This document shows positions 37,606-57,942 of a stretch of 64,000 nucleotides of DNA, piece by piece (position 1 is the first letter of the stretch; each line of letters begins with the position of its first letter). Origin of the DNA: Verrucomicrobiaceae bacterium (GTDB lineage Bacteria > Verrucomicrobiota > Verrucomicrobiia > Verrucomicrobiales > Verrucomicrobiaceae); NCBI GenBank assembly GCA_016795365.1, contig JAEUHN010000009.1, forward strand, positions 124,001 to 188,000. The letters are read 5' to 3'. The notes below the pieces were generated by a model, which made no database searches, was not told the origin of the DNA, and saw only the letters and a program-made list of their open reading frames with translations. Position numbers and translations under genes: made by a program.

Positions 37606-39324
37606 ATGCCTGACCTTTCCACCAAGTTTTCTCTTCCACGCGCTGCCTGGGTGCTCAAGCCCACGGCAACGCCTGCAAGTGGGACGGTGGCCGGGCGGCC
37701 TCTGGCTCCGCTCATCGCTCAACTCCTGGGGCAGCGTGGGCACCTGCATGAGGAGACGGTGCTCAACTTCCTCAATCCAAAGCTCGCTTCCCTCGGCGAT
37801 CCATTCGATCTGCCGGAGATGGAGCCCGCAGTGAAGCGCATCTTCGAGGCTGTGGATCGTCATGAGAACGTGGTGCTCTACGGCGACTACGATGTGGATG
37901 GCGTCACCTCGATGTCCATCATCCACCTCACGCTCAAGGCGTATGGACTCGATACCAAGCTCTTCCTCCCCCATCGCATGGAAGAAGGCTACGGCGTGAG
38001 CAAGGATGGCATCGCGCGCGTGTTCGAAGAGTTCGGCAAGCCGCACCTCATCCTCGCGCTCGATTGCGGCACCACGTCACTCGCCGAGATGGAATCGCTC
38101 GCACGTCACGGCGTCGATGTCGTGATCGTCGATCACCATGAGCTGTCCCCCGATGGCCGCCCCATCTGCAAGGCGCTGGTCAATCCCAAGCTCAGCGATC
38201 GCAATCACCACTTCTGCACCGCAGGCCTCGCCTTCAAGGTGGCCCATGCGCTGCTCAAGACGCGCAAGGTGGATGGCTTCGACCTCAAGGACATGCTCGA
38301 CCTCGTCGCCCTCGGCACCGTGGCGGACCTCGTTCCCCTCGTAGCCGAGAATCGCACGCTCGTGCGTCGCGGCCTGGAATTGATCGCCAATACCTCGCGG
38401 CCAGGGCTTCGTGCCTTGAAGGAAGTCGCCGGCCTTGATGGCTTCGTGCAGACGCATCACCTCGGCTTCCGCATTGGTCCCCGATTGAATGCAGCCGGTC
38501 GCCTCGATACCGCGCTCACTTCGCTCAATGTCCTGCTCGCCACCGATCACACCGATGCGATGTCTGGCGCGCAACTGCTCGATCAGCACAATCGCGAGCG
38601 CCAGGGCGTTGAGAATTTGGTTTTCAAAGAAGCCGAGGCCATGCTGCAAAACCTCGGCTCCCTCAACGACCTGCCCAGCATCGTGCTCGGCTCCCGCGAC
38701 TGGCATCCCGGCGTGGTCGGCATCGTCGCCTCCCGCATCTCCCGCATGTGCCATCGGCCCACCATCCTCATCGCCATCGACGATGAAGGCATGGGCAAGG
38801 GCAGCGGGCGCAGCATCCCCGGCATCAGCCTGGTGGAGGCCATCGAATCCTGCCGCCATCTCCTCACCAAGGGCGGTGGCCACGCCATGGCCATCGGGCT
38901 CTCCGTTCATGAGAGCAATATCGACGCCTTCCGCACCGCCTTCGCCGATGTGATACGCACCAAGCTCGAGTCCGGCAATCTGGTGCCCATCATGGATCTG
39001 GATGTCGAGCTGCGACTGCGCGACATGACCACCGACTTCCTGGAGCAGTTCAAGCTGCTCGAACCCTTCGGCCAGGCCAATCCCGAGCCCATCTTCCTCT
39101 GTCGCGGTGTGTCACCTCGATTGCCGGGTCGCGTGATGAAGGAGAAGCATCTCCGCGTCACCCTCATGCAAGACGGTGCCCAGCAAGACGCCATCTACTT
39201 CAACGCCCCCCTCAGCGAACTCCCGCCCCCGCCCTGGGACGTCGCCCTGCGTCTGCAACGCAACTGGTTCCGTGGCAACGAAAGCTGGCAGTTCACTATC
39301 GAAGGAATTCGGGCAGCGGAGTGA
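37606..39324 (+). CDS. recJ: Single-strand DNA exonuclease RecJ
   Basis: 572 residues. RecJ is a 5'-3' single-strand exonuclease in recombinational and mismatch repair. The DHH-phosphoesterase motifs are DYDVDG (94-99), ALDCGTTS, VIVDHHEL (DHH 176-178) and TVADLVPL. The DHHA1 domain has RIGPRLNAAGRLD, DWHPGVVGIVASRI, GSGRSIPG and GGHAMAIG. The C-terminal OB-like domain is present. The stop codon TGA (39322-39324) lies inside the first unit of the 21-bp tandem array, so loss of that TGA would extend the protein into the repeat until the next in-phase TGA, in unit 10. Confidence 0.95.
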   Translation: MPDLSTKFSLPRAAWVLKPTATPASGTVAGRPLAPLIAQLLGQRGHLHEETVLNFLNPKLASLGDPFDLPEMEPAVKRIFEAVDRHENVVLYGDYDVDGVTSMSIIHLTLKAYGLDTKLFLPHRMEEGYGVSKDGIARVFEEFGKPHLILALDCGTTSLAEMESLARHGVDVVIVDHHELSPDGRPICKALVNPKLSDRNHHFCTAGLAFKVAHALLKTRKVDGFDLKDMLDLVALGTVADLVPLVAENRTLVRRGLELIANTSRPGLRALKEVAGLDGFVQTHHLGFRIGPRLNAAGRLDTALTSLNVLLATDHTDAMSGAQLLDQHNRERQGVENLVFKEAEAMLQNLGSLNDLPSIVLGSRDWHPGVVGIVASRISRMCHRPTILIAIDDEGMGKGSGRSIPGISLVEAIESCRHLLTKGGGHAMAIGLSVHESNIDAFRTAFADVIRTKLESGNLVPIMDLDVELRLRDMTTDFLEQFKLLEPFGQANPEPIFLCRGVSPRLPGRVMKEKHLRVTLMQDGAQQDAIYFNAPLSELPPPPWDVALRLQRNWFRGNESWQFTIEGIRAAE

Positions 39325-39656
39325 TCTGGCGCGTGCGCCAAGTGGTCTGGCGCGTGCGCCAAGTGGTCTGGCGCGTGCGCCAAGCGGTCTGGCGCCTGCG
39401 CCAAGTGGTCTGGCGCGTGCGCCAAGTGGTCTGGCGTGTGCGCCAAGCGGTCTGGCGTGTGCGCCAAGCGGTCTGGCGCGTGCGCCAAGCGGTCTGGCGC
39501 GTGCGCCAAGTGATCGGGCGCGTGCGCCAAGTGATCTGGCGTGTGCGCCAAGCGGTCTGGCGCGTGCGCCAAGCGGTCTGGCGTGTGCACCAAGCGGTCT
39601 GGCGTGTGCACCAAGCGGTCTGGCGTGTGCGCCAAGTGATCTGGCGCGTGCGCCAA
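39321..39656. repeat. Sixteen-unit 21-bp tandem array, each unit palindromic
   Basis: Sixteen contiguous 21-bp units fill the space between recJ and purQ, which converge on it. Each unit is a 14-base palindrome (TGGCGCGTGCGCCA, arms of 6 around GT) plus a 7-base linker (A-G-T/C-G-G/A-T-C). Variation sits at fixed positions: T or C and G or A in the linker, and a C-to-T change in the left arm (units 6, 7, 11, 13-15). Units 13 and 14 are identical and carry the rarer GCACCA arm. Because 21 is a multiple of 3, long spurious reading frames cross it. Possible roles are bidirectional transcription end, protein-binding array or minisatellite. There are no spacers, so it is not CRISPR. Confidence 0.95.
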
Positions 39657-39679
39657 GTAGCACCCCACAACCCGGATGA

Positions 39680-55573: not shown

Positions 55574-56080
55574 ATGAAAATCTTCCAACGTTTCGAAGTC
55601 TGGGCGCTCCTGCTGCTGGCCGCCGGAGCCGGTGCCTTCGTGTTCTTCACCTCGAAGAGCGACGGGCCGGAGCCCTTGATTTCCAATGCCGGTCCCGCCA
55701 CGCCTGAAGCCAGGCTCCAGGTAAAGAAATGCACGGTGACTCGCGACTTCGGCAATGCGCGGCTGGACGTCGCGGTGCGCATGACCAATGCCCAGTCGAA
55801 GAAGCTCCTGCTCGTCGCGCCCGCCGTCCGCCTAATCAATGCCAAGGGTGCCGAGGTCCCGCCTTTCATCCTGCCCGTGGAGCCTCCACCCGAACTGCCA
55901 CCCCAGACCACGGCTGACGCCTTGCTCCGCTTCTGGGCGGAAAAAGAGGACCTGCAGGGCGCGCTCACCCTCCAGATTCAGGACGAGAAGATCGAACTCA
56001 AGTCCGCCCGTCCCTTCGACCTCGAAGCGCTCAAGAACGCGGAGCCTCGGGTGTTTCAGCCGGGTGATTGGACGCCCTGA
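55574..56080 (+). CDS. Membrane-anchored hypothetical protein
   Basis: 168 residues. N-terminal transmembrane helix (FEVWALLLLAAGAGAFVFF) and a soluble beta-sandwich-like domain (RLQVKKCTVTRDFGNARLDVAVRMTN, KKLLLVAPAVRLINAKGAEVPPF) with a Pro-rich stretch. No family recognised. It is divergent from tig and overlaps the convergent MFS gene by 50 bases at its 3' end. Start set by the helix at ATG 55574. Confidence 0.65.
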   Translation: MKIFQRFEVWALLLLAAGAGAFVFFTSKSDGPEPLISNAGPATPEARLQVKKCTVTRDFGNARLDVAVRMTNAQSKKLLLVAPAVRLINAKGAEVPPFILPVEPPPELPPQTTADALLRFWAEKEDLQGALTLQIQDEKIELKSARPFDLEALKNAEPRVFQPGDWTP

Positions 56081-57263
56081 GCGACCTGATCGCCACGGCC
56101 AGCGCCAGCAGGTTGAGCGCGGCTCCACAAAAGAAAGCCGCACCGGGCACGGCGGGAGTCGTCTTCACAAAGTGCCCGAACAAGCCTGTCGCAACGAACG
56201 GCCCGATAATGCCCGCGACGCTGTTCAGGCTGGTCAAAGAACCCTGCACTCCCCCCTGCTCGTCCGCTCCCACGCCTTTGGAAATCAAGGCCTGCACGGC
56301 GGGCGTGGTGATTCCCGAGATCGACCCGAACACAATCAGCGGATAAATCATCCAGCCATGCGTGGCCAGGCCGTAGCCTGTGAAAGCCACGACCGCCACG
56401 GCCACGCCGAGCATGATCGCCTTCGATTCCCCGATCTTCGGCACGATCTTCCGCGTCAGCCCTCCCTGCACCAGTGCCGCGCAGAAACCGACCGCGGCCA
56501 GCGACAGCCCGGTGTCCAGTTCGCTCCAGCCATAGCGATGGCTCGCATACAGCACCCAGGTGCTCGGATAGACCTGATGGGCCACACACAGCAGGAAATA
56601 AGCAATCGCCAGCCCCAGGACCATCGGATGCGAACGGCCCAGATTGACCAGCGCGCCGACCGGATTCGATTTGGCCCAGCTAAACGCCCGCCGGTTCTCC
56701 TGTCCCAGCGACTCGGGCAGCACGAACCAGCCGTAGAGCCAGTTGATCAAGGTCAGCACGCCCGCCACGATGAACGGCAGCCGCAGATCGTAGTGCCCCA
56801 GCACCCCGCCCATGGCCGGGCCAATGATGAAGCCCAGGCCGAATGCCGCGCCCACCAGGCCGAAGTTCGCCGCGCGCTTCTCCGGCGGGCTCACATCTGC
56901 GATGTAAGCCGTCGCCGCCGCGAAATTCGCACCCGTGATGCCCGACACCACACGACCCACGAAGAACCACGCCAGATTCGGAGCGAAGGCCAGCAGCAGG
57001 TAGTCCAGCCCCGAGCCCAGCAACGATAGCAGAATCACCGGCCGGCGCCCGTAGCGATCCGACAGACTCCCCAGGATCGGCGCGCAGACGAACTGCATCA
57101 GCGCATAAACCGAGGCGAGCAGTCCATACGTGTGCGAGGCCTGCGCCACGTCGCCACCTTGGAAGTGCTTCACCAAGTCCGGCAGCACCGGCACGATCAG
57201 CCCGATGCCCAGAATATCGAGAACCAGCGTGACGAAGATGAAGGGCAGGGCGGGCTTGCGCAT
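56031..57263 (-). CDS. MFS transporter of the TCR/Tet drug-efflux type
   Basis: 410 residues and about 12 hydrophobic helices. Motif A is [19 protein letters not shown] between helices 2 and 3, and helix 1 has [20 protein letters not shown], the D-x-x-G-I-G-L-I-x-P pattern of TetA-like DHA1 antiporters. Helix 5 has [19 protein letters not shown] (motif C). The substrate could be tetracycline-like or any hydrophobic compound; resistance cannot be claimed from sequence. The 3' end overlaps the convergent hypothetical gene by 50 bases. Confidence 0.88.
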
Positions 57264-57405
57264 GAGGCGCAGAGCAGGAGCGTGAAAGCGGGAAAGCGCA
57301 AGGGGGAGGCTGGGCGGTCAGCGGACGGTGCCGCAAGGCGATGATCGCTGGCAGCGCAGCTCCGCAGCGTGAGCGAGTCCCGGATCATGGACCGCTCCTT
57401 GGCTG

Positions 57406-57733
57406 GTGAATCGACAGCAGGACCGAGAGAAAAATGTCCGTCATTCGAGAATCGAGAGGAGCGGAAAAATTTTCGGGCGCTCCTCTGGATTATGATTTCA
57501 CGCATTTGAATTTTCCGGACGGGCTCTCGATTGTCGTGAGCACTTCCGGGAAATCCCAGCGCTTCATTCGATTATAATAACACGCACTCGGATTTCCCAG
57601 AGGTCCGCAGGACAATCGAATGAGCCGCTGAGAATTTTTTGCGCTCCTCTCGATTCTCATGCGTGCGACTGGGAAAAAATGGCGGAGCGCACGATTATAA
57701 AAACACGCAGCCCGATTCGCTGCAACCTAGCTG
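57406..57733. repeat. Degenerate 41-bp tandem array upstream of nuoE
   Basis: Eight consecutive 41-base units start at 57406, 57447, 57488, 57529, 57570, 57611, 57652 and 57693. Units at 57488, 57570 and 57693 share a head close to GATTATAATAACACGCA (the third versus the second: 4 mismatches in 25). Most units carry a second A/T tract near position 21-28 (for example GGATTTCCC, GAATTTTTT) and a tail like GCGCTCCTCTC. A 17-base perfect inverted repeat joins 57447-57463 to 57642-57658, and AGAGGAGCG/CGCTCCTCT makes a local hairpin at 57455-57486. It occupies about half of the 57264-57942 interval. No gene was recognised in it; 57264-57405 and 57734-57868 show nothing else. Confidence 0.7.
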
Positions 57734-57868
57734 CCAAGACGAACCGCGTGCGTTCGAGACCGCCGAGGATGCCGACGGGCAACCGGATGCCGCAACGCGG
57801 TGCGGAGGCACGCAGGCCTATGATTTCGGCAGGTGGAAAAGGCTTCGACTGTTCCCCATCGGCAGGGC

Positions 57869-57886
57869 TTGTGAAATTTTTCACAA
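57869..57886. promoter_or_regulatory. Rex-type operator upstream of nuoE
   Basis: TTGTGAAATTTTTCACAA matches the published Rex consensus TTGTGAA-N4-TTCACAA at all 14 specified positions and is symmetrical over 8-2-8. It lies 56 bases before the nuoE ATG. Rex represses respiratory and fermentative genes when NADH is low relative to NAD+ and releases DNA when NADH rises. No rex gene is in the window, so the regulator is inferred. Confidence 0.85.
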
Positions 57887-57942
57887 ATTCGTCTTGCCGC
57901 ACCAGACCGCGAAAGGATAGTCGCGAACCCGCTTCTCTGAAC

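Follow-up and report, generated by a model that had tools for sequence, protein, structure and literature searches.

The window, by which is meant the whole stretch of 64,000 nucleotides of Verrucomicrobiaceae DNA analysed here, carries a degenerate 41-bp tandem array between a drug-efflux-type gene and nuoE, and the question is what kind of element this array is and whether it belongs to a wider class. The array is real. Its eight units start 41 bp apart at 57406, 57447, 57488, 57529, 57570, 57611, 57652 and 57693 and open with GTGA, GAGA, GATT, GATT, GATT, GACA, GATT and GATT, respectively, which recovers the register and the GATT-like heads of the original prediction, and the three heads of the form GATTATnA..CACGCA are present as well. 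Identity within 57406-57733 was 0.43 at lag 41 (z 6.9), 0.46 at lag 82 (z 7.6) and 0.52 at lag 123 (z 8.8) relative to dinucleotide-preserving shuffles (n=300, lags 5 to 139), among which the maximum identity at any lag was 0.376. For the wider interval 57264-57942, where an autocorrelation excess at lags 41 and 82 had been anticipated, z was 3.8 and 5.2 at these lags and 7.0 at lag 123. The array is the second-strongest periodicity in the window, after the 21-bp array at 39320-39658. The A/T steps showed a power excess at 20.5 bp that was reached by 0/200 shuffles, in agreement with the predicted phasing of A/T tracts near two helical turns. The features of the locus are given in Table 1.

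Table 1. Coordinates, in window positions, of the arrays and neighbouring features
Feature	Position	Strand	Evidence or remark
Second array without a family gene, near-perfect 21 bp x 16	39320..39658	.	Between convergent recJ and purQ
MFS efflux gene, divergent from nuoE	56031..57263	-	Pfam MFS_1
Array-bearing segment absent from G001	57302..57867	.	About 565 bp versus about 30 bp in G001
Eight-unit 41-bp tandem array	57406..57733	+	Lag identity, BLAST/unit comparison with the C26 array, dyad symmetry
Long inverted repeat, 26 nt, 92% complementary	57447..57472 with 57633..57658	+ with +	
Second inverted repeat, 36 nt, 81% complementary	57527..57562 with 57584..57619	+ with +	
Palindrome TTGTGAAATTTTTCACAA, neighbour outside the array	57869..57886	.	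Conserved upstream of nuoE in most relatives searched
nuoE, occupying the place of the fn3-type gene of C26	57943..58434	+	

A paralogous array of 7-9 units was found by BLAST elsewhere in the window's genome, G000 (G000:C26:54113-54380, - strand). The order of units is partly common to the two copies, window units W3-W4-W5 matching C4-C5-C6 of C26 and W7 matching C3 at 33/41 positions. The C26 array lies about 300 bp 3′ of an integron-type integrase gene (TIGR02249, 378 bits, cut-off 265). The gene that follows it, about 240 bp downstream of the array, encodes a protein that looks helical in one part and has a fibronectin-III-like end, the latter matching Pfam fn3 with an E value of 1.6e-4, which is under the curated cut-off. 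A genome of the same genus, G001, carries the C26 array with 92% identity over 328 bp, with 27 substitutions and no indel. The units had been expected at the same locus in close relatives, an expectation that failed in G001, since its nuoE locus is without an array and its homologous array stands elsewhere. Homologous arrays were found in G000 and G001 only and in none of 66 other genomes of the family, and no homology was found in plasmids. Because aligned stretches differ by 21-27% between the window and C26 copies and by about 8% between C26 and its G001 orthologue, the duplication would thus predate the split of G000 and G001, or the window copy would stem from an unsampled source.

The arrays could be recombination sites (attI- or attC-like) of the neighbouring integron-type integrase and have been dispersed by it. 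Those at C26 and in G001, G020 and G036 all lie 3′ of integrase genes, and since G001 has an integrase of another sequence at the same junction, exchange seems to happen there. A search of the genome with TIGR02249 however gave no integrase at the window copy, and in the genomes searched none of the integrase matches listed lay near the fn3-type family loci. Integrase loci of other taxa were nearly all without such arrays, and inspection of the units by eye did not reveal the attC core consensus. This reading is regarded as quite improbable, and the initial notion that the arrays belong to integrase loci was dropped once fn3-type genes distant from integrases had also proved to have arrays upstream. 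The G001 integrase at the C26 locus is 52% identical to that of G000 and both end in CCGCTGGATGATCTGTGAGGGCG (L078:5350-5844, L029:6669-7688), from which shared end the homology of the two genomes continues downstream. Over its last 49 codons G001:C368 agrees with C26 at 98%, with divergence after the stop, and the integrase gene there is broken by GC-rich inserted stretches (L075:5562-6761). The 3′ end of the integrase looks like an exchange junction. In an Akkermansiaceae MAG a 64-bp (about 3 x 21) array was found just 3′ of an integrase 61% identical to that of C26 (L177:5169-5595).

Dyad symmetry in a fixed register is a property of the window array that was not among the observations of the original prediction. 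The 17-base perfect inverted repeat noticed earlier as a sign of reversed motif copies was located (57447-57463 pairs with 57642-57658), and when the units of the window and C26 arrays were compared with the reverse complement of their own array, all best inverted matches fell at offset 7 of 41. As all inverted matches share this one register, there are two dyad axes per 41-bp period, 20.5 bp apart. The symmetry was significant in the window array (P below 0.0005), and in a column-permutation test the window, C26 and G001 arrays all gave P <= 0.0015. Single 41-bp units are weakly palindromic (about 4/10 pairs, relative to 2.4 at random axes), and the symmetry is therefore one between units in both orientations. 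A local hairpin in each unit was considered as the common element and rejected, being weak in the 41-bp arrays.

A wider class first showed itself in a scan of integrase loci, where several relatives have arrays of period 21 or 42 bp with unrelated unit sequences, and in a sample of the window's genome another 21-bp array lies directly upstream of a helical-fn3 gene. The family of this fn3-type gene was searched in ten genomes, with 700 bp inspected on each side of the gene, and in this discovery set arrays were located upstream of most family copies and downstream of almost none. The array score threshold of 0.48 was chosen after the discovery set had been seen and was left unchanged for an out-of-sample set, all but one of whose loci came from genomes outside the first set; here an array was upstream in 18/20 loci and downstream in 1/19. 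In a further set 7/7 loci had an upstream array, and these include one genome from a different family of the order and one from another part of the phylum. For comparison, 0 to 2% of random 700-bp windows reach the score, and genome-wide array frequencies are sample-based estimates. A few family genes are without an array, in the discovery set as well as in the out-of-sample set, which counts against the reading preferred below.

Altogether 47/52 loci reached the score and a fundamental period was assigned in 43, namely 21 (30 loci), 42 (9), 63 (2), 64 (1) and 41 (1). The mean score over the 52 loci has its maxima at exactly 21, 42 and 63, whereas at 20, 22, 41 and 43 it stays flat. Because the period of the class is exactly 21, 42 or 63, the 41-bp arrays of this genus are taken as a variant with slightly shorter turns. 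The class is recognised by a period of two turns or a multiple thereof, by dyads in fixed register and by a helical-fn3 gene directly downstream. The window array has the first property as 41 (2 x 20.5) and also the second, and the third is found at C26 and not beside the window copy. Across 22 arrays of the class the dyads gave a Fisher combined P of 2e-14, some of these arrays being homologous and thus not all independent. Period and dyads persist while unit sequences differ from locus to locus. A 21-bp motif common to the genomes, GGATGGYTTKGCGSKTCC, was tried and rejected, being modestly above control in most genomes and in clear excess in a few (e.g. G040); because the excess is so modest in most, no unit sequence is common to the class. 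The class is apparently undescribed, as no earlier account of such arrays was found in the titles and abstracts of the literature on Verrucomicrobia tandem repeats or 21-bp arrays.

The main gene family itself had no match in Pfam, NCBIfam or PHROGs. In the predicted structure (mean pLDDT 80, pTM 0.44) helices at the N-terminus are followed by a C-terminal domain that matches fibronectin-III folds. The C26 gene is like the main family in architecture, with no detectable sequence relation to it, which weakens the link between the 41-bp arrays and this family. The N-terminal 40-60 residues (WDSG.RWDDPNLRWG-like) are also found on genes that otherwise do not match the family, as though array, leader and N-terminus formed a single module. 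In one fn3-type homologue, L305 (G001:C122), the C-terminal part is immediately preceded by array-like sequence, as would result from loss of the N-terminal half. At several loci a short collagen-like gene comes after the fn3-type gene (L029:3874-4455, L075:3747-4301).

Static curvature of the DNA, produced by phased A-tracts, was the purpose first proposed for the window array. A dinucleotide wedge model did predict strong curvature for this array (z -4.1) and for L128 (z -5.4), in line with the A/T phasing. That part of the proposal stands for the window copy and is not conserved, since curvature was weaker in the C26 paralogue (z -1.9) and short of significance in the orthologue of the latter in G001 (z -0.6); neither was it significant in most arrays of the class, several of which are GC-rich and without A-tracts. 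Curved DNA as the purpose of the array is thus not well supported and is considered highly improbable. What is conserved instead is the two-turn spacing, the register of the dyads and a position 5′ of one type of gene.

The comparison of G000 and G001 bears on what is kept in these arrays. In two arrays, that of C26 and one upstream of a family gene, there were 88 substitutions and 0 indels, the latter array having 61 substitutions and no indel in 440 bp. The control, aligned non-coding DNA beside nuoE, had 13 substitutions and 2 indels in 183 bp and is small, and the spacer from the integrase to the C26 array showed several indels between the two genomes, one of >200 bp. Letters thus appear to change while length is kept, a tendency clear in direction and measured against a small control. 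The arrays might alternatively be neutral minisatellites, that is 21-bp palindromic units grown by replication slippage in intergenic DNA, with the window array an old and decaying one without a role. Since units show no relation from one locus to the next and certain arrays are near-perfect, arrays do expand, and two arrays of the window have no adjoining family gene, both of which are expected of a minisatellite. Slippage however leaves unexplained why arrays are upstream and not downstream of one kind of gene, why the period is exact and why zero indels accompany 88 substitutions, and as an account of the class it appears distinctly unlikely. Coding was also considered, as 41-aa or heptad repeats, and rejected: the C26 reading frame is broken within the array and in most of the diverged arrays the variation is without codon phase.

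The main rival is that the arrays act as RNA, namely as a transcribed leader of the downstream gene whose repeated hairpins regulate translation or serve as binding sites for the gene product, in the manner of the repeat RNA of type III toxin-antitoxin loci. It holds this place because the median distance from the end of an array to the start codon inferred from alignments is 70 bp, with some arrays ending within 10 bp of it. The folding energy of the 41-bp arrays is 4 to 6 sd below that of shuffles and many 21-bp units are palindromic. Against this, good folding is expected of every dyad-symmetric repeat, whichever strand is taken, as here with z -6.4 and -6.2, and the local palindromes of the 41-bp arrays are weak, their pairing joining distant units. 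There was no Rfam match at gathering score, and the gene products had no match in the PADLOC library. An RNA role is on balance unlikely.

At the window the array stands apart from the kind of gene that defines its class. No fn3-type family gene was found beside it, and because its gene is absent and the site lies between the divergent MFS and nuoE genes, the window copy is an orphan. The order of its units makes its + strand the counterpart of the gene strand at C26, and it has the same orientation as the C26 array, ending about 210 bp before the start of nuoE. NCBIfam tetracycline-efflux models match the MFS gene under their cut-offs. The palindrome near nuoE is taken by us to be a Rex-like operator. 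A scan of the window locus gave no promoter and one terminator-like site, which is no excess over expectation. The window array may have lost its gene or come without one. Either nuoE or the MFS gene may be its target, or it may have no function at all; the copy may be a neutral relic even if the class is functional. At the other array of the window without a family gene, recJ and purQ are on separate contigs in G001, where purQ has a different neighbour and no array.

The preferred reading, to which a probability of about 0.45 is given, is that the window array is the orphan of a class of arrays, non-coding, helically phased and dyad-symmetric, which in Verrucomicrobiaceae stand just upstream of multicopy helical-fn3 genes and would serve as multi-site DNA scaffolds controlling the adjacent gene. 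We infer that the arrays act as DNA. A bias that action as DNA does not predict counts against this, as reading frames stay open in 98/132 cases on the gene strand of the upstream arrays and in 64/132 on the opposite strand (L295-L363), although the variation has no codon phase. Equal dyads, two-turn spacing, variable letters and conserved length together suggest, from geometry, a dimeric protein on one face of the helix: dyads recurring every two turns would place its sites on that face, and cooperative occupancy of the array would then set the expression of the gene. Somewhat more tentatively, the class may be a cis-element defined by geometry, with dyad units at exactly two turns before each fn3-type gene, whose letters drift and whose length and phase are kept by selection. 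If spacing rather than sequence is selected, the arrays would be a natural test of how far geometry alone can specify a protein-DNA complex; they would also account for many of the tandem repeats between genes in Verrucomicrobiaceae and single out a many-copy fn3-type family. The orphan beside nuoE indicates that an array can part from its gene and stand before a core metabolic gene.

Several known systems resemble the arrays in part. Iterons of plasmid origins and centromere arrays such as sopC of the F plasmid are direct repeats whose length of about 20 or 43 bp is close to two or four turns of the helix and puts binding sites on one face of the DNA, and each 43-bp unit of sopC contains an inverted repeat. 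The arrays described here are alike in being phased direct repeats with a proposed one-face geometry and unlike in being chromosomal, present at many loci per genome and paired with fn3-type genes. Iterons and centromeres have moreover one unit sequence per family, whereas units here differ between loci, and none of the arrays examined was seen to have a Rep or Par gene next to it. In type III toxin-antitoxin systems the repeat RNA (toxI) consists of direct repeats immediately upstream of a protein gene, with units that differ by locus, and in these respects it is similar. The period of 21, the dyads and the lack of a toxin-like product are different, the downstream gene being nuoE at the window and fn3-type elsewhere, and action as RNA is here a rival reading only. 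Integron att sites are comparable in that some arrays lie 3′ of an integrase passing TIGR02249, and differ in that most arrays are without an integrase. The adhesin genes hmw1A and hmw2A of Haemophilus have 7-bp tandem repeats in their promoters (PMC2424069, PMC8262952). Both systems have tandem repeats in the 5′ region, there of genes for surface adhesins; it is the number of a fixed 7-bp sequence that varies in hmw1A/hmw2A, whereas here the 21-bp unit length is fixed and the letters vary, with no change in unit number in the two arrays compared between G000 and G001. REP/BIME elements (PMC3733652) are intergenic palindromic repeats with units in both orientations, traits shared by the present arrays. 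The arrays are set apart from REP/BIME by differing in unit sequence from one locus to the next, by a fixed head-to-tail period and by their position on the 5′ side of one kind of gene.
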